DNA of 64,000 nucleotides from Bryobacter aggregatus MPL3 (GTDB taxonomy: Bacteria > Acidobacteriota > Terriglobia > Bryobacterales > Bryobacteraceae), in the NCBI RefSeq assembly GCF_000702445.1, contig NZ_JNIF01000004.1:744001-808000 (forward strand), in the 5' to 3' direction. Positions within the stretch are counted from its first letter, which is position 1, and every line of letters starts with the position of its first letter. Below, piece by piece: positions 56,224 through 64,000 of this stretch. The notes below the pieces were generated by a model. It ran no database searches and had not been told where the DNA came from. It saw only the letters and a program-made list of their open reading frames with translations. The translations under genes and the position numbers were made by a program.

Positions 56224-58068
56224 CTAATGGCTCGTGCGAATGATGACGAAGAGGAGTGCGGCGATCATGAGTACGACCACCACGCAGGCGACGAGCAGCA
56301 TGGGGCTCATTCCCTTGAGGAAGCCAGGAGCGGCGGCAGGCGCCGGGGCAGCAACCGGCGGTGGTGCGGGTACGCCACTGGGTTGCGAGAAAATCGGGGC
56401 CGCCGCAGCGGCAGGTTGATTCTGTTGCGGCACCGGGACGCCGATGGCTGGCGCTGAGGCCGGCTTTGGAGACTGCATCATCCTGGTGAAGTCGCCAGGG
56501 CCCTGATGGACCGGGGCTTGTGCTGCAGGAGCCGAGGAGGCTTGCGGCGCCTTGAAGAAGCTGGTGGCTCCATCGGGGCTGGAAAGCGCGTTCGGATTCA
56601 TGGGCGCGTTGCCTGAGGACAGTGGTCCCGCGGCTGGCGGCGCAACATTAGGCGGGGGCGCCCCAGAGCCGGCGCCGAACCCAGGCAGATTGTCGAGAGA
56701 GAAGCTTCCGCCGCCCAGAGAATTTGAAGACAGGGATGGGCCGCTCATGGACGGCGTGGATAAGGACGGGCCGTAAGCGCTGCCCGCATTGAAGGACGGC
56801 GTTCCAATATGAGGGCCGCTGATCTGTCCGGAACTGGAGATGGAGGGGCCGCTCAAGCTGGGGATGCTGACGGAGGGAGCAGAGATGCGGGGGCCGCTTA
56901 GCGAGGGGGAAGGCGTTGAAATGTTCAGGCCGGGTAAGGACGAACCGCCCGACGCGGAGGGCGGAGGGGCCTGGGGCTGGCCGTAAGCCGGAGGTGGCGC
57001 TCCGAAAGGAGGAGGCGCGGGAGTGGGTTGCCCCATTGGAAAGGGCGGAGGTGCTGCTGCACTCCCTCCACTATTGTGCCCGCCAGTCTGCGAAGGAGTC
57101 TGGAGGAGGCGGGTGAAGTCTCCGGGGCCGGACGCTGGTGCTGCGGAGGGCGGGGGCGCTGAAGGCAGGACGCTCGGCGTCTCGACTGCCTTGAACATGC
57201 GCGTAAACTCGCCAGCCTGCTGGGACGGCGGTGGCGCAATGGGATTGGTGATCGGATTGACAGGCGCAGGCGTGTGGTTCACCAGTGGAGACTGGAACAT
57301 GCGTGTGAACTCGCCCGGTTCCTGGGAAGCCGTGGGAGGGGGCACGGGCGGAAAGAGCGGTGCTGGCTGGGGAGGAGGCGGTGCAGAGAAGGTTGGGAAC
57401 TGCGCAGTAGGCTGTGCAGAGGCCGGAGGTGGGGTGACAGGAGGAGGAGGCGGGGCAGGTTTTGCCACCGGTTGCGGCTGTGCCTGGAACATGCGTGTGA
57501 ATTCACCGGGGCCTTGCTCGACGGGCGCCGGCGGGACGGGTGCGGATGGCGCTGGTGTGGGTGGAACTGGGGTCCAGGCCGGTGGAGGCGGCGGTGGCGC
57601 GGGCGCAGGAACTGGCGCAGGAGGCGTTGGCATTGGCGCGACGGGCATCAGTCTGGTGGCTTCTTCAGCAGGTGCGGGAGGAGGCGGACGGAAGGCTGGG
57701 ATCTCCTGCGTTGCGGGCTCCACTGGAGCGGAGGGATTGAATTTGAAGGCTCCAGCCTGTGTGAGCGGATCGGGAGTCTTCGCATGTCCGAGCGTCTTGA
57801 GCCAGTCGCTCAGAGTAGCTCCTGCGGGGAGGGGACGCGTGACGATATAAGCCTTGGCTCCATCCTGCACCACTTCGAGGATCGGCTTTTCGCCAAAGCT
57901 TGCCGCGGCAAACTGCTTCTTGGCGATTTCGAAAAGGTTATGGGCATCCGGGCGAATGATGTGAATCCACACCTCTTCGCCGGTCATTTTAATTACAGCG
58001 CGATAAGAGAGTGCCTCTGCGGAGTCGGCGACGGGGGAAATGAGTTGGTATGTGGATTCGAAGGACAT
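56224..58068 (-). CDS. Tail-anchored proline-rich protein with five PG(E/D)FTR motifs and a kinase N-lobe-like head
   Basis: The 614-residue protein has three parts. Residues 1-95 look like a degenerate Ser/Thr kinase N-lobe (YRAVIKMTGEEVWIHIIRP, then AYIVTRPLPAGATLSDWL) without the glycine loop or the catalytic lysine. Residues 100-580 are disordered and rich in Pro, Ser and Ala, with GPGEFTRMFQ (186-195), EPGEFTRMFQ (250), QAGEFTRMFK (284), GPGDFTRLLQ (314) and GPGDFTRMMQ (523). The last 25 residues are a single membrane helix (LLVACVVVVLMIAALLFVII). It lies 55 bp from the divergent tssK. The motif codons vary synonymously, which argues for selection on the protein. A role as substrate or scaffold for the T6SS kinase is inference. 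Confidence 0.75.
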   Translation of the reverse strand: MSFESTYQLISPVADSAEALSYRAVIKMTGEEVWIHIIRPDAHNLFEIAKKQFAAASFGEKPILEVVQDGAKAYIVTRPLPAGATLSDWLKTLGHAKTPDPLTQAGAFKFNPSAPVEPATQEIPAFRPPPPAPAEEATRLMPVAPMPTPPAPVPAPAPPPPPPAWTPVPPTPAPSAPVPPAPVEQGPGEFTRMFQAQPQPVAKPAPPPPPVTPPPASAQPTAQFPTFSAPPPPQPAPLFPPVPPPTASQEPGEFTRMFQSPLVNHTPAPVNPITNPIAPPPSQQAGEFTRMFKAVETPSVLPSAPPPSAAPASGPGDFTRLLQTPSQTGGHNSGGSAAAPPPFPMGQPTPAPPPFGAPPPAYGQPQAPPPSASGGSSLPGLNISTPSPSLSGPRISAPSVSIPSLSGPSISSSGQISGPHIGTPSFNAGSAYGPSLSTPSMSGPSLSSNSLGGGSFSLDNLPGFGAGSGAPPPNVAPPAAGPLSSGNAPMNPNALSSPDGATSFFKAPQASSAPAAQAPVHQGPGDFTRMMQSPKPASAPAIGVPVPQQNQPAAAAAPIFSQPSGVPAPPPVAAPAPAAAPGFLKGMSPMLLVACVVVVLMIAALLFVIIRTSH

Positions 58069-58123: not shown

Positions 58124-59455
58124 ATGAAGCAACTCTCTCGTGTCGTTTGGTCCGAAGGAATGCATCTTGCGCCTCATCATTTTCAGGCGCAAAAACGGTA
58201 TTTCGAAGACCTGATCGATTTCACCTCACAATCCCTTTATTACGCGGCTTATGGCTTTGCCGGTATCGAATGGAGTGAGGAGGCACTACGCAACGGGCGC
58301 GTAGAGCTTTTGCATGCCCGTGGTTTCATGCCGGATGGGCTCGCATTTGTGATGCCTGAATCCGATGGCTTACCGGAAAGCCGTCCGATTGCCGACCTGA
58401 TCAGTCCCGTGGCACGTTACTCCACCATTTATCTTGTGGTGCCGCCCTACAATCCTGGCGGGGCAAACTGCAGCGACGAAACGACGCGCTTTGCTCCCGG
58501 CGAGCAGAAGATTGTCGACGAAAACGGTGGCACCGAAGAACGTCCAGTCGTCTTAGGGCATAAGAATTTTCGATTGCTGCTCGAGCAGGAACTGACGCCC
58601 GAGCTGACGAGCATGCCGATCGGCCGTGTGATGCGCGATGGGGCGGGGAATCTGGTGTTTGATCCGGACTTCATTCCCCCCCTCGTGACTATCTCCGGTT
58701 CCCGTCGCCTGATGGTGATGTTGAATCGCCTGGTGGAGATTCTGGGCTCCAAGGGGACGGCTTTGCGTCCCGAACGGGCGAGTGCCAAGCTGGGCGGTAT
58801 GAGCCAGCGCGATGTGGCCAGCTTCTGGTATCTGCATTGCATTAATTCTGCAATTGCAGATCTGAAACATACCGCTGCAGTGAAGAAAGGGCATCCGGAA
58901 GAACTCTACCGGCAATTGCTGAAGTTGGGAGGGGCTCTCTGTACCTTCAATTTGAAGCGTGACCCCGCTGATCTTCCGCTCTACAACCACGCCGAGCCGG
59001 AACGCTGTTTTCCGCAACTGGATGCCCATATCCGCGAAGCGCTCGAAACGATTCTGCCGTCGAGTGCGATGCAGATTCCACTGACTCCCTACGCCCCTTA
59101 TCTACAGGAAGGCAGCATTGCAGACGATCGATGTCTTGCGAAGGCCAGATGGATTCTGGGCGTACGGGCGCAAGCCGCGGAAAGCGTTGTCATTCTGCGG
59201 ACACCCCAACTGATCAAGGTTTGCTCGCGTGACTTTATCGAGCGGCTGGTGCAGACTGCTTATCCGGGTTTGGAGTTGATCCACATGCCGATTCCTCCAA
59301 CGGAGATTCAGATCAAAACCGAAATGCAGTATTTCTCCATCTCGCGCGTTGGTCCTTGTTGGCAGCAGATTGCGCGTTTGAAACAGGTAGGTGTTTACGT
59401 GCCGGGAGAATTTCCCTCGGCCGAAGTGGAATTGATCGTGATCCTGGAAGCATAA
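58124..59455 (+). CDS. tssK: Type VI secretion baseplate protein TssK
   Basis: The 443-residue protein shows the TssK (ImpJ/VasE) N-terminus VVWSEGMHLAPHHFQAQKRY, the conserved RLMVMLNRL segment, and the C-terminal part ILRTPQLIKVCSRDFIERLVQ. TssK trimers link the baseplate to the membrane complex. The ATG at 58124 is chosen over a TTG two codons upstream because family members start with MKxxSRVVWSEG. It is the first gene of a tssK-tssL-tssM-kinase operon. Confidence 0.94.
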   Translation: MKQLSRVVWSEGMHLAPHHFQAQKRYFEDLIDFTSQSLYYAAYGFAGIEWSEEALRNGRVELLHARGFMPDGLAFVMPESDGLPESRPIADLISPVARYSTIYLVVPPYNPGGANCSDETTRFAPGEQKIVDENGGTEERPVVLGHKNFRLLLEQELTPELTSMPIGRVMRDGAGNLVFDPDFIPPLVTISGSRRLMVMLNRLVEILGSKGTALRPERASAKLGGMSQRDVASFWYLHCINSAIADLKHTAAVKKGHPEELYRQLLKLGGALCTFNLKRDPADLPLYNHAEPERCFPQLDAHIREALETILPSSAMQIPLTPYAPYLQEGSIADDRCLAKARWILGVRAQAAESVVILRTPQLIKVCSRDFIERLVQTAYPGLELIHMPIPPTEIQIKTEMQYFSISRVGPCWQQIARLKQVGVYVPGEFPSAEVELIVILEA

Positions 59456-59464
59456 GGGGGACAG

Positions 59465-60172
59465 ATGCAGGCACCGAGTTTGATGGAGCGAGAGACGCTC
59501 GCGGTGATTTTTCAAGAACCGATGACGGCGGTGGTGCGCGTCTGGTCGAATCCGCAGATGACGCAGGATCCCTACGGACTGCGGGAGCATATGAAGTCGT
59601 CGCTGAAGGCTTCGATAGAAGATGCGCGGCGCAAGAGTTTTTCAGAAGAAGAGACAAAGCTGGCGATGTTCGCGATTGTCGCTTATCTGGATGAGACGAT
59701 TCTGACCCAGAATCAGCCTGCGTTTGCCGATTGGCGCCGCAAGCCGCTCCAGGAAGAACTGTTTGGGGTACATATCGCCGGTGAGATTTTTTTCCAGAAT
59801 CTTGAGAACATCATCCGGCAACCGGACAGCCTGCCGAATTCCGATCTTCTGGAAATCTATGCCTTGGCGATCAGCCTGGGCTTTCAGGGCCGCTATAGTG
59901 CTGGAGGGAAAGCGGAACTGAAGCGGATTGTCGATGCCTGCATGGATAAGTGCCGCCGCATTCGTGGGGCGATGCCGCCCTTGTCGCCGTCCGGGGAACT
60001 GCCTCCGACCGATGCGGTGCTGGCGAGCCGGGACCCCTGGTTCCAGCGCATGGTTCTGATTGGTGGAGGCTTGTGTGTCATGGCAGTGCTGGCCTTTGTC
60101 GTTTATAAAGTGCTCCTCGGTTCGGGCGCCGATGAATTGCGCTCGCTGGCGCAAGAATTGACTCGTAGGTAA
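59465..60172 (+). CDS. tssL: Type VI secretion inner-membrane protein TssL (DotU/ImpK)
   Basis: The 235-residue protein has the DotU helical bundle (EEETKLAMFAIVAYLDETIL, GEIFFQNLENIIR, LLEIYALAISLGFQGRY) and one C-terminal membrane helix (MVLIGGGLCVMAVLAFVVYKV). It lacks a peptidoglycan-binding domain after the helix. It joins TssM and TssJ in the membrane complex. Nine bp separate it from tssK. Confidence 0.94.
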   Translation: MQAPSLMERETLAVIFQEPMTAVVRVWSNPQMTQDPYGLREHMKSSLKASIEDARRKSFSEEETKLAMFAIVAYLDETILTQNQPAFADWRRKPLQEELFGVHIAGEIFFQNLENIIRQPDSLPNSDLLEIYALAISLGFQGRYSAGGKAELKRIVDACMDKCRRIRGAMPPLSPSGELPPTDAVLASRDPWFQRMVLIGGGLCVMAVLAFVVYKVLLGSGADELRSLAQELTRR

Positions 60173-60190: not shown

Positions 60191-63100
60191 ATGCTCTTCT
60201 ACGGAATTACCGCAATACTTTGGATTGGTTGGATGGTCCTCGGCTGGTTTATGCCGGACTGGGTGAGTTTAAAAGGCAAAGATGTCTGGTTTGTCCGCAT
60301 CCTGTTTTGGCTGATTGGCACCGCATTTGCCGGGTTTGCGATTTATTGGAAGCTGATGGCCGATCGCCGCAAAAAGGCGCTCGCCCTGGCTGGAGAACAA
60401 GGCGCGGAACTGGAATTTGTCCTGGCGGAAGCGGACAAGAAGTTGCAGGCGAGCGGCAAGAGTCTGGCCACGATGCCAGTGGTTTTTGTCATGGGCGCCA
60501 GAGGCTCGGCTAAGACGACTTTGATCACACGCAGTGGCGTGGAGCCGGAGTTGCTCGCTGGGTTGGTATACCAGGAAGGCAACCAGCTCGTCCAGACGCG
60601 CACAGCGAATGTCTGGCTGGCCAAGCAGACCGTCTTTGTCGAAGCGGCGCCGACCTTGCTCGAGAGCGACAAGCTTTGGAATGCCTTTGCGCAGCGCTTT
60701 GCCCCGACCGGCATGACGGCGCTGAAGGCAAATGCCGCACCGGCTCCGCGTAGCGTGCTGATGTTTGTTGGCATGGAAGAGTTCTTCCAACAAAACGCGG
60801 GTGAGGCGATGGCGGCGAAGGCCCGCATCCTGAACCAGCGCCTGATTGAGATGTCGAAGATGCTGGGGGCACGCATCCCGGTCTACGTGATGTTCACGAA
60901 GGCAGACCAGATGCCGCACTTCCCGCCGTATGTCGCCTACATGAGCAATGAGGAAGCGACGCAGATTTTGGGCGCGACGGTTCCGATTGCGGATATGGCC
61001 TCGCAGGGAGTCTATGCCGAGACGGCAGCGAAGAAGTTTTCCGATCTGCTCGAAGAACTGTTCCGCAGCCTGGCTGAGCGCCGGGTGAGTTTGCAGGAGC
61101 GCGATGCGAATCAGCAGGGGCGCCCGCCGGTCTATGAGTTTCCGCGTGAGTTTCGCAAGCTGAAGCAGGCCGCAACCACCTTTCTGGTTGATCTTTGCCG
61201 GCCGAGCCAATTGGCCGTATCACCCTTTGTGCGCGGTTTCTATTTCACCGGCGTGCGTCCGGTGCTGACGACCGACGCGGCGGGCACACAGCGCCGCGTG
61301 CCGCAGTGGCTGTTTGTCACGCGCTTCTTTAGTGAAGTGTTGCTGAAGGACCGGGCCGCGCTGGGCGCTGCCTCCTCCAGCATGAAGACGAACACAACCC
61401 GGCGCTTGCTGCTGGGTGTGGCCGGCGCGCTGGGCGTGATTGCAACCACACTGTTTACCGTGAGTTACTTCAATAACCGGTCGCTCGAGAACGAACTGGG
61501 AGAAGCGTCGAAGGCTTTGCGTGGCGTGCAAGTGGCCCCGGGCGAGGTGCCGAGTCTCGATAGTCTGACCAAGCTCGATCGATTGCGCGCTGTTCTCGAA
61601 CGGCTGCGCAGCTACCAGCGCGATGGCGCGCCGATGATGATGCGCTTTGGTTTGTATACGGGCGACACGATTCTCCCGACCTCGCGCAAGTTGTATTTCG
61701 AGAGTTTCCGCAATGTCATGTTTGGCGAGACGCAGACGGCTGTTCTCGACTCCATGAAGCGCCTGCCGGCAGCACCGACGCCGCAGGACGATTACATGAC
61801 GACCTACAACGCGCTGAAGGCTTATCTGATCACGACCTCGAACCCGGACAAGAGCACGAAGAGCTTTCTCACTCCGGTGTTGCTGAAGTACTGGCAAGGG
61901 GCCAAGCAAGTGGAGCCACAGCGCTATGGCTTGATCGGCAAGCAGTTTGATTTCTATGCCGAGGAGTTGAAGGAATCGAACCCCTTCTCGCGGGAGAACG
62001 ACACGAATACGATCGATCGCACACGGAGCTTCCTCAAGCAGTTCTCCGGGGAAGAGCGCTTGTACAACGCGATTCTTGCCGAAGCGAATCGGGCCAATCC
62101 GCCGATCAACTACAACAAGTTGTATCCAGATGGATATAAGGCCGTCCGGGTGGATAAGGAAGTACAAGGATCCTTCTCGAAGGAAGGCTTTGCCTGGATG
62201 CAGGATGCGTTCAAGAATCTTCCGAAGTACTTTGGCGGCGAAGCCTGGGTGCTGGGGGAAGAGGTCAAGATCAGCGTCAATTTGAGTGAGCTGGAGCAGC
62301 GCTTGCGTGCGCGCTACAACAAGGACTTTGCTGAGCAGTGGAAGGCTTATCTGAAAAGCGTGACGGTGCTGCGCTATGCGAGCTTGAAGGACGCTGCGGA
62401 TAAGTTGAAGATGCATTCGAGCAACCAGAGTCCGTTGCTGGCGGCGATCTATCTCGCCTCGAAGAATACGGCTGTTTCGGAGAAGACCATTGCAGACCTG
62501 TTCCAGCCGACGCAGTTGCTGGTGGCGCCCGGGAGTGCCGGTCAACTGATCGGCGGGGAGAATCAGCCCTACATGGGCGGTCTGTTGCAGTTGCAGGGTT
62601 CGATCGAGCAGATCTCGACGATGCCGGCGAGCCAGGCGGCTCAGGATCCTGCTGCCGCTCAGAGTTTGAATCTGGCGACGACCGCCAAGATGACGGCGCG
62701 CAATGTTGCGCAGAAGTTCCGGCCCGATCCGCTCGAGAAGATCGACGGGCAAGTGCTGAAGCTGATGGAAGACCCGATTACTTATGTCGAGACTTTCTTG
62801 CGTGGCCTGGGCCCGGCGGAATTGAATGGCGCCGGCGCCGGCTTCTGCAAAGCGTTCAGCGACCTGATCTCGAAGTATCCCTTCAACCCGGCCGCAAAGA
62901 ATCAGGCCACGATCGCCGAGTTCAATTCGATCTTCGCCCCGCAGACCGGCTCGCTGTGGAGCTTCTATGAAACCAAGCTGAAGGCGATGCTGGTGCACCA
63001 GGGCGGGGAATACCGTGCCGTGCCCACACCGTCGATGGCATTGACGCCGCAGTTTGTGGCCTCCTTCAATCGCTTTGCGGCGGTGACGGCGACGGCCTAC

Positions 63101-63526
63101 GGGATGAACCCGAGTCCGAGCTTCCGCTACTCCGTGAAGCTGAATCCGGAGATGAAGCGGGAAGTGAAACTCTCCATCGACGGCCAGAGTGGCGAGTTCA
63201 AGGACGCCAGTAGCCCGGCGAAAGCTTTCGTTTGGAATGGCCAGGGGGCCGGTGTCCGCACAACAATTGTGGGTGGGGGGACGGTGAGTTTCGATGGACC
63301 TTTGGGCGTGTTCCAATGGTTTAACGATGCAGAACGCTGGAACCAGAATACGGCAACCTCACACACGGTTCTCTGGTATCAGCGCTCTGGGACCAAGATC
63401 ATGACGGATGACCAAGGCAAGCCACTCTCGATGATCCTCGATCTCGAGATGCCCATCCCGTTATTCCGGAAAGGTTATCTGGCGGGGTTGCAGTGTACCA
63501 GCAACGTCGCCCGCTCTGGCAACTGA
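60191..63526 (+). CDS. tssM: Type VI secretion inner-membrane protein TssM (IcmF)
   Basis: The 1111-residue protein has two N-terminal helices and a cytoplasmic GTPase-like domain with Walker A GARGSAKTT (102-110). A third helix lies at about 404-426 (LLLGVAGALGVIATTLFTV), with a large periplasmic part after it that ends in VAFWW-type family sequence. It forms the trans-periplasmic channel of the secretion system. The Walker A is intact, so it may bind nucleotide. Its stop overlaps the kinase start by 1 nt. Confidence 0.94.
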   Translation: MLFYGITAILWIGWMVLGWFMPDWVSLKGKDVWFVRILFWLIGTAFAGFAIYWKLMADRRKKALALAGEQGAELEFVLAEADKKLQASGKSLATMPVVFVMGARGSAKTTLITRSGVEPELLAGLVYQEGNQLVQTRTANVWLAKQTVFVEAAPTLLESDKLWNAFAQRFAPTGMTALKANAAPAPRSVLMFVGMEEFFQQNAGEAMAAKARILNQRLIEMSKMLGARIPVYVMFTKADQMPHFPPYVAYMSNEEATQILGATVPIADMASQGVYAETAAKKFSDLLEELFRSLAERRVSLQERDANQQGRPPVYEFPREFRKLKQAATTFLVDLCRPSQLAVSPFVRGFYFTGVRPVLTTDAAGTQRRVPQWLFVTRFFSEVLLKDRAALGAASSSMKTNTTRRLLLGVAGALGVIATTLFTVSYFNNRSLENELGEASKALRGVQVAPGEVPSLDSLTKLDRLRAVLERLRSYQRDGAPMMMRFGLYTGDTILPTSRKLYFESFRNVMFGETQTAVLDSMKRLPAAPTPQDDYMTTYNALKAYLITTSNPDKSTKSFLTPVLLKYWQGAKQVEPQRYGLIGKQFDFYAEELKESNPFSRENDTNTIDRTRSFLKQFSGEERLYNAILAEANRANPPINYNKLYPDGYKAVRVDKEVQGSFSKEGFAWMQDAFKNLPKYFGGEAWVLGEEVKISVNLSELEQRLRARYNKDFAEQWKAYLKSVTVLRYASLKDAADKLKMHSSNQSPLLAAIYLASKNTAVSEKTIADLFQPTQLLVAPGSAGQLIGGENQPYMGGLLQLQGSIEQISTMPASQAAQDPAAAQSLNLATTAKMTARNVAQKFRPDPLEKIDGQVLKLMEDPITYVETFLRGLGPAELNGAGAGFCKAFSDLISKYPFNPAAKNQATIAEFNSIFAPQTGSLWSFYETKLKAMLVHQGGEYRAVPTPSMALTPQFVASFNRFAAVTATAYGMNPSPSFRYSVKLNPEMKREVKLSIDGQSGEFKDASSPAKAFVWNGQGAGVRTTIVGGGTVSFDGPLGVFQWFNDAERWNQNTATSHTVLWYQRSGTKIMTDDQGKPLSMILDLEMPIPLFRKGYLAGLQCTSNVARSGN

Positions 63527-64000
63527 TGCAACAGCAGCAACTTGGCAAGTACAAGTTCGAGCAGTTTCTCGGTGGCGGCATGTCGCATGTTTATAAGGCG
63601 CGCGACACGCTGATCAACCGGATCGTTGTGGTCAAAATTCTGACCGACAGCGGGATGCACGACGACGATACCAAGAAGCGTTTTCTTCGCGAGGCGCAGA
63701 CGGCGGGGGCAATCTCGCACGAGAACATCATTCGTGTTTATGATTTCGGTGAACACGAAGGCCGTCCCTATATGGTGATGGAGTATCTGCAGGGCCATGA
63801 TCTGCGCGCTTCCATCCAGCAGGGGCAACTGACGACGGTTGTCGAAAAGCTGAAGGTACTCGTGCAGTTGGCGCGCGGGATGAAGCACATCCATGGGTTG
63901 GGCATCGTCCATCGCGATCTCAAGCCCGACAACGTCTTCATGAGCGACACCGGCCAGGTGAAGCTGATGGATTTTGGCATTGCAAAGACCAAAGATCTGT
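63526..64000 (+). CDS. Ser/Thr protein kinase of the T6SS operon, C-terminus cut by window
   Basis: The 158 visible codons hold a Hanks-type kinase N-terminal half: LGGGMSHVYKARD (glycine loop), VVVKIL (catalytic lysine), HRDLKPDNV (catalytic loop) and DFGIAKT. The PpkA kinase of the T6SS threonine-phosphorylation pathway is encoded in the same kind of place in Pseudomonas. The overlap with tssM (TGATG) shows coupling. The rest of the protein, where an FHA or other domain could lie, is outside the window. Confidence 0.92.
   Translation, partial: MQQQQLGKYKFEQFLGGGMSHVYKARDTLINRIVVVKILTDSGMHDDDTKKRFLREAQTAGAISHENIIRVYDFGEHEGRPYMVMEYLQGHDLRASIQQGQLTTVVEKLKVLVQLARGMKHIHGLGIVHRDLKPDNVFMSDTGQVKLMDFGIAKTKDL

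Follow-up and report, generated by a model that had tools for sequence, protein, structure and literature searches.

A 64,000-nucleotide stretch of the Bryobacter aggregatus MPL3 genome (hereafter the window; feature coordinates are window positions) carries, divergent from genes of a type VI secretion system (T6SS), a gene for a protein in which five copies of a short motif with a Phe-Thr-Arg core are strung along a proline-rich linker with a predicted C-terminal membrane tail. Genes for such FTR-array proteins recur next to tssK in the window's order and in two further families of Acidobacteriota (f2 and f29), the motif peptide is under selection, and the T6SS lineage in question has duplicated its TssK. 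We propose, with a probability of about 0.5, that the array protein is a membrane-tethered multivalent docking arm of this dual-TssK T6SS, with threonine phosphorylation perhaps tuning the docking.

Architecture of the array protein

The open reading frame of the array protein is uninterrupted and encodes 614 aa. Its parts, all on the minus strand, are as follows.

56224..58068 (-): FTR-array protein gene, encoding 614 aa; a domain like a kinase N-lobe, a Pro-rich linker carrying the five FTR motifs, and a membrane helix at the C-terminus
57784..58068 (-): residues 1-95, putative truncated N-lobe of a protein kinase in which His occupies the ATP-lysine position, and no C-lobe
57481..57510 (-): motif copy 1, PGEFTRMFQA, residues 187-196
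57289..57318 (-): motif copy 2, PGEFTRMFQS, residues 251-260
57187..57216 (-): motif copy 3, AGEFTRMFKA, residues 285-294
57097..57126 (-): motif copy 4, PGDFTRLLQT, residues 315-324
56545..56574 (-): DGATSFFKAP, residues 499-508, counterpart of a conserved ATxxF element
56470..56499 (-): motif copy 5, PGDFTRMMQS, residues 524-533
56230..56304 (-): C-terminal membrane helix (tail anchor), residues 589-613, from structure model and hydrophobicity

The Phe residues of the five [DE]FTR copies lie at positions 190, 254, 288, 318 and 527, and the codons for F, T and R vary synonymously among the copies (TTC/TTT; ACA/ACG/ACC; CGC/AGG). Among 100,000 shuffles of the protein, 131 contained one [DE]FTR and none contained two or more, and a DNA pattern for G[DE]FT[RS][ML] matched the B. 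aggregatus genome five times, four of them inside the array gene. Across six species of the genus, identity to the window protein was 0.89 in the motif columns and 0.48 in the linker (p=1.5e-12). At the level of sequence comparison this establishes selection on the motif peptide, which a preliminary description of this DNA, made from the letters alone, had deduced from five copies with varied synonymous codons.

We then counted residues at each motif position in 44 proteins, leaving one position free at a time (L155 and L156, probably two ends of one gene, were counted as two proteins). The threonine position was occupied by T in 277 of 297 copies, the remainder being E (5), D (4), S (4), N (3), M (2), Q (1) and A (1); position -1 was F or Y in 277/295 copies and position +3 was F in 244/284. 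The threonine of the preliminary description is thus conserved. The peptide varies least at G(-3), at F or Y (-1), at T and at the hydrophobic +3 position, and in this respect it resembles a short linear binding motif. Members of the family differ in copy number but share the motif core: in 38 linkers the core was observed 237 times against 0.0 expected. Copies that keep the motif frame and lack T or S were also in excess (31 observed vs 0.8 expected in the same linkers), mostly with E, D or N, and within the genus copy 2 has exchanged T for N in one species and for D in another. The acidic residue at -2 is replaced by Ser in 13/18 copies of f2 and 7/13 copies of f29.

These patterns bear on a tentative alternative that we consider clearly less probable than a docking arm, namely a phospho-switch in which the T6SS kinase phosphorylates the FTR threonines at multiple sites and the phosphates are recognized by an FHA protein or exert their effect through charge. 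The strong preference for T, with S in four copies, and the replacement of T by D or E in some copies fit such a switch, whereas its replacement by N in others does not. Similarly, according to an excerpt of PMC7164672, hydrophobic residues at +3 are overrepresented near PknA-dependent sites as well, whereas the acidic residue of the motif lies at -2, outside the positions given for PknA in the same excerpt (-1, -3 to -6), and it is this residue that becomes Ser in f2 and f29.

Residues 500-508 had been suggested to hold a degenerate sixth motif copy. The stretch DGATSFFKAP is 0.78 identical within the genus, and an [AG]T[QRG]xF element was observed 28 times in the 38 linkers against 2.3 expected; the window's ATSFF narrowly misses this pattern and its counterparts in L097, L098 and L100 fit it. 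We therefore rejected a decayed FTR copy at residues 499-508, since ATxxF recurs as such in many members, and the stretch is better read as a separate conserved element.

The linker (residues 111-586) consists of 27.5% Pro and 14.9% Ala, and in a full-length structure model the predicted local distance difference test score (pLDDT) is below 50 over most of it, with a helix at residues 589-613. The first 19-residue segment exceeding 1.6 on the Kyte-Doolittle scale begins no earlier than residue 580. Furthermore, a C-terminal hydrophobic stretch was present in 42/42 array-family members tested; eleven loci hold runs of N, one of which cuts an array protein that was omitted from this count. The protein is predicted to be tail-anchored, with one C-terminal membrane helix and no other, consistent with the tail anchor and disordered proline-rich chain described previously. 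The distance of 55 bp to tssK given in the same description is correct provided that tssK begins at the ATG at 58124, where M and K are nearly invariant across ten TssK1 proteins. Pfam and NCBIfam scans (the latter on the proteins of the window, L112, L160 and L157) returned no family match for the array protein, and by its sequence it is a member of an unnamed family with 2-18 motif copies per member.

The ordered N-terminal domain (residues 1-95) had been missed in the preliminary description. A profile built from 35 N-terminal domains was compared with PDB sequences and aligned with kinases at their N-terminal lobe (best E 1.8e-4); among the best 60 of 91 matches, all were kinases but one DUF442 protein (E 0.59). 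The model of the domain had a pLDDT of 84.5, and its 50 best Foldseek matches listed were all kinases (best E 7.4e-5), as were the 50 matches listed in a VIA re-comparison of Foldseek's list (Z about 10). Pfam scans of the 35 domains gave no PF00069 match and no FHA among the families listed; the matches were chance-like, the best of them to BRK (E 0.0082, one domain), DUF7736 (0.015, four domains) and the Pan3_PK pseudokinase model (0.071, one domain). His36 is found in at least 90% of the 35-sequence alignment A1 (which omits L104, whose start was wrongly chosen; L125 and L126 lack the N-terminus), and on our reading of the alignment its column corresponds to the place of the VAIK lysine. 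In the structure model the ordered domain ends near residue 95 and is followed by the linker, with no C-lobe carrying HRD and DFG. The His at the ATP-lysine place and the lack of a C-lobe thus point to the truncated relic of a kinase rather than to a true kinase. Matches to the domain (E <=0.01) were found in 36/200 genomes of a sample of the order. Members of family f2 keep the array and the tail and lack the N-lobe, which suggests that array plus anchor are the constant part of the protein.

The presence of both parts on one chain raises an improbable alternative, in which the motif docks in cis or in trans on the protein's own N-lobe domain and a self-assembled membrane-bound network results. 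AGC-kinase hydrophobic motifs dock on N-lobes, and F-x-x-[ML]-F may resemble such docking motifs; the modelled kinase N-lobe fold of the N-terminal domain would provide a site for them. However, f2 maintains its array without this domain, and the motif stretches are of low confidence and without helix or strand in the full-length model.

Linkage of the array to T6SS genes

Divergent from the array gene, on the plus strand, the window holds the following T6SS genes.

58124..59455 (+): tssK1, a duplicated TssK gene, divergent to the array gene (Pfam PF05936 E 1.3e-125, TIGR03353, tree)
59465..60172 (+): tssL (DotU), Pfam
60191..63526 (+): tssM (IcmF), Pfam
63493..64000 and beyond the window end (+): Ser/Thr kinase, 576 aa, kinase domain then FGE-sulfatase-like domain

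In a tree of TssK proteins, TssK1 and TssK2 were sister clades with support 100/99 each, from which we conclude that this T6SS lineage duplicated its TssK. The TssK copies of f29 were nested inside the window's family, which suggests transfer. The cluster is split in the B. aggregatus genome, where tssK2, tssC, hcp, impE, tssA, tssE, tssF, tssG and a ClpV-like ATPase gene lie 93-105 kb away.

We analyzed the neighborhood of the array in a first set of 40 loci, picked by motif or N-terminal matches, so that the rate of arrays in it is no frequency. We called genes in the other genomes with a simple in-house rule, the fetched stretches (up to 20 kb) differ in length, and the rows are related by descent and unweighted. 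Arrays of 2-18 copies were present at 37/40 loci under a two-copy rule, which L123, L133 and L135 failed; L123, from the contig of L189, has three looser copies and is cut by the contig end. A tssK gene lay within the fetched stretch at 33 of the 37 array loci of the window's order. At 27/37 loci the divergent neighbor of the array gene was tssK1, with tssL and tssM after it wherever the stretch was long enough, and in 13 of these 27 tssK2 stood on the other side of the array gene. Six of the 37 had tssK2 only, at a distance of 1.5-3.3 kb in L122 and L131. The five genus-mate stretches, L096-L100, come from the same contigs as L177-L181.

A second, GTDB-based collection comprised the best 80 of 548 relatives, 20 of which repeat loci of the first set; four of the 80 were left out for lack of upstream sequence, leaving 76 tssK1 loci that each had 900 bp or more upstream. 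Of these, 59 carried an array of at least two copies (range 2-16, median 7). Among the 56 tssK1 loci new to this collection, 40 had an array, two had one match and 14 had none. Genome-level and tssK1-locus counts were tallied by hand from match lists. In the order sample, with matches counted irrespective of clustering, at least three strict matches on one strand were found in 64/118 genomes with tssK and in 1/82 genomes without it, and at least two strict matches in 81/118 and 7/82, respectively. The array is common in the window's family. The array gene also stands beside tssK1 in f2 and f29, with the variant PGSFTQMFQ, and in L157, L160 and L161 tssK2 lies on its other side. Across a sample of the phylum the strict DNA pattern gave any match in 65/396 genomes, B. 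aggregatus included, and matches elsewhere were single or scattered; the pattern is too narrow because f2 and f29 use PGSFTQMFQ. Finally, 12 fetched T6SS loci (L162-L172, L174) encode a TssK that falls in neither the TssK1 nor the TssK2 clade; no array was found at any of them, and the array protein is thus not a core component (TssA-TssM) of the T6SS. Together, the divergent pairing with tssK1 and the genome-level association bear out the earlier proposal of a new repeat scaffold tied to the T6SS.

Other genes recur around these loci. A TssC-like protein, about 28% identical to the TssC of B. aggregatus, is encoded near tssK2 or just past tssM (L101:4838-6262, L113, L116, L117:2058-3431); that of L101 matches both the VipB and the VipA model and may be a fused or a second sheath protein. 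A gene for a methyltransferase with an MTS domain and parts resembling DUF7059/DUF7782 lies repeatedly next to the array gene or tssK2 (L117:11048-12544, L105:6694-8166, L112:6651-8114). Past the T6SS kinase (window 63493 to end; L136:2745-6160) lie genes for an SPFH/Band-7 protein with a zinc ribbon and for two DUF4178 proteins, and an SPFH gene follows the kinase in 4/5 genus-mate stretches (L097-L100).

Kinase, phosphatase and FHA genes at array loci

The preliminary description had named the kinase at the end of the operon as the writer, and an FHA protein as the reader, of a phosphorylated motif. Kinase and PP2C genes were counted by similarity to one or two seeds and FHA genes with an in-house profile from four seeds; per-genome TssK and FHA counts are complete. 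In B. aggregatus, the gene after tssM does encode a kinase, whose kinase domain is complete by Pfam and is accompanied by the FGE-sulfatase-like domain. A kinase followed tssM at 22/38 array loci with room for it, compared with 10/13 tssK1 loci with fewer than two motif copies (p=0.32), and its presence therefore does not track the array. Moreover, T was kept in 65/67 copies (8 proteins) without a kinase after tssM and in 85/98 copies (13 proteins) with one, a difference (p=0.03, rows not independent) in the direction against the phospho-switch. We thus rejected a requirement for a local kinase as the sole reason for the motif, given that T is kept without the kinase and the kinase does not follow the array. 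Searching the motif in other genomes, as had been advised, separates the two proposed links: that to the T6SS holds, and that to the kinase as writer is not borne out by linkage. The kinase after tssM in B. aggregatus nevertheless counts in favor of phospho-control, as does the T-over-S bias.

At 3/3 loci of family f2 (L155, L157, L159; Pfam), the gene after tssM encodes a PP2C phosphatase, in the slot that a kinase often occupies in the window's family. This is a point in favor of the phospho-switch and speaks for reversible phosphorylation somewhere in this T6SS. In f29 (L160, L161), neither a kinase nor PP2C was found in this slot.

As for an FHA reader, the B. aggregatus genome had two FHA matches (E 1e-5), which are FHA-GAF-SpoIIE proteins encoded on another contig (C3), apart from the T6SS genes, and no FHA gene was found beside the T6SS genes; of the features of a T6SS threonine phosphorylation pathway, the genome thus has the Ser/Thr kinase in the T6SS cluster and not the FHA reader. 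FHA genes were present at 2/37 array loci (L127, L129) compared with 6/12 array-less loci with a single, other TssK (p=0.0014). Two further tssK1 loci have FHA genes, a sigma-54-type FHA regulator near tssK1 in L152 (G574) and an FHA gene about 3.6 kb past tssM in L220. Arrays and FHA genes of the T6SS tend not to occur together, without strict exclusion, and the reader role is not borne out. In genus g212, the arrays of L105 and L114 lie away from tssK and have many EFNxLF-like copies with N for T; an array-bearing genome of this genus (G401) encodes an FHA-DUF4123 protein beside tssK2 in a T6SS cluster elsewhere (L150).

A candidate docking arm at the membrane complex

Anchor, repeats and tssK1-tssL-tssM make up the constant core, a layout that suits a multivalent docking arm tethered to the membrane. 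In the mechanism we favor, the tail would hold the array protein in the inner membrane, with a flexible proline-rich arm on the cytoplasmic side bearing 2-18 near-identical peptides of approximately G-[DES]-F-T-[RQ]-[ML]-F. Each peptide would bind the same pocket of one candidate partner, likeliest TssK1 or another cytoplasmic part of TssK1-TssL-TssM; TssK1 is the natural candidate because the lineage with the array is also the one that duplicated TssK, and because tssK1 stands divergently beside the array gene. Many copies of the partner would thereby gather at the membrane complex, which would make baseplate docking efficient. The kinase-N-lobe relic may serve as an optional extra interaction domain, and phosphorylation of the threonines may either weaken or strengthen docking.

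Several observations weigh against a docking arm. Four of the 37 array loci had no tssK in the fetched stretch (L105, L111, L114, L120), of which L111 has tssK2 about 19 kb off on the same contig (L149). No array lay beside tssK1 at 15/76 loci of the second collection, and 2/76 had a single match; among these 15, L227, which shares its contig with L152, belongs to a genome whose array lies on a different contig (L122). Fewer than three strict matches were found in 54/118 tssK-bearing genomes of the order sample, and the motif was not helical in the single-chain model. In addition, the bias for T over S (277 vs 4) would suit a phosphothreonine role at least as well. The loci without tssK, along with the 93-105 kb that in B. 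aggregatus separate the array gene from tssK2, from the sheath and tube genes and from further baseplate genes, would also fit an array gene that is a bystander of the T6SS, for instance one encoding an envelope protein or a cargo. We consider this very unlikely, as the divergent pairing with tssK1 is conserved over three families and the association with tssK holds between genomes.

The proposed docking arm resembles multivalent short-linear-motif scaffolds in that a disordered chain displays one short motif many times over. Among T6SS proteins, excerpts of PMC12607579 and PMC3953482 describe Fha and PpkA as gathering T6SS parts in other bacteria, PpkA via condensates. The array protein is like Fha/TagH in being a T6SS accessory with possible ties to threonine phosphorylation and to the recruitment of T6SS parts (as these excerpts portray Fha), but it has no FHA domain, carries a membrane tail and peptide repeats, and occurs at FHA-poor loci. 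In Agrobacterium, according to the excerpt of PMC3953482, phosphothreonine 14 of TssL is bound by Fha, a precedent that favors the phospho-switch. As is proposed for the array protein, that TssL sits in the inner membrane with a threonine on the cytoplasmic side, and its T6SS includes a Ser/Thr kinase; in contrast to TssL, the array protein is not a DotU protein and has many sites instead of one, and tssL is a separate neighboring gene here. PpkA-type T6SS kinases share the kinase N-lobe fold modelled for the N-terminal domain, whereas the array protein has no C-lobe and has His for the ATP lysine, the real kinase being a separate gene. A literature search on the motif peptides, T6SS repeat proteins and Acidobacteria T6SS, largely at title level, returned no description of the array protein, its anchoring or its T6SS link.

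A bolder version of the docking arm, which we regard as speculative and rather unlikely, is that a T6SS lineage duplicated TssK and replaced Fha by an arm of up to 18 threonine-centred peptides, often on a kinase relic, that would collect TssK1 baseplates at the membrane complex and be set by the kinase or PP2C encoded after tssM. The array would then perhaps stand in for Fha.

If the docking arm is real, the array protein would be an undescribed and widespread accessory T6SS component in soil Acidobacteriota, from a lineage that has two TssK proteins, and a bacterial secretion machine would be organised by a eukaryote-like multivalent peptide scaffold. As the peptide FTRMF is short, its partner and its phosphorylation would be directly measurable.
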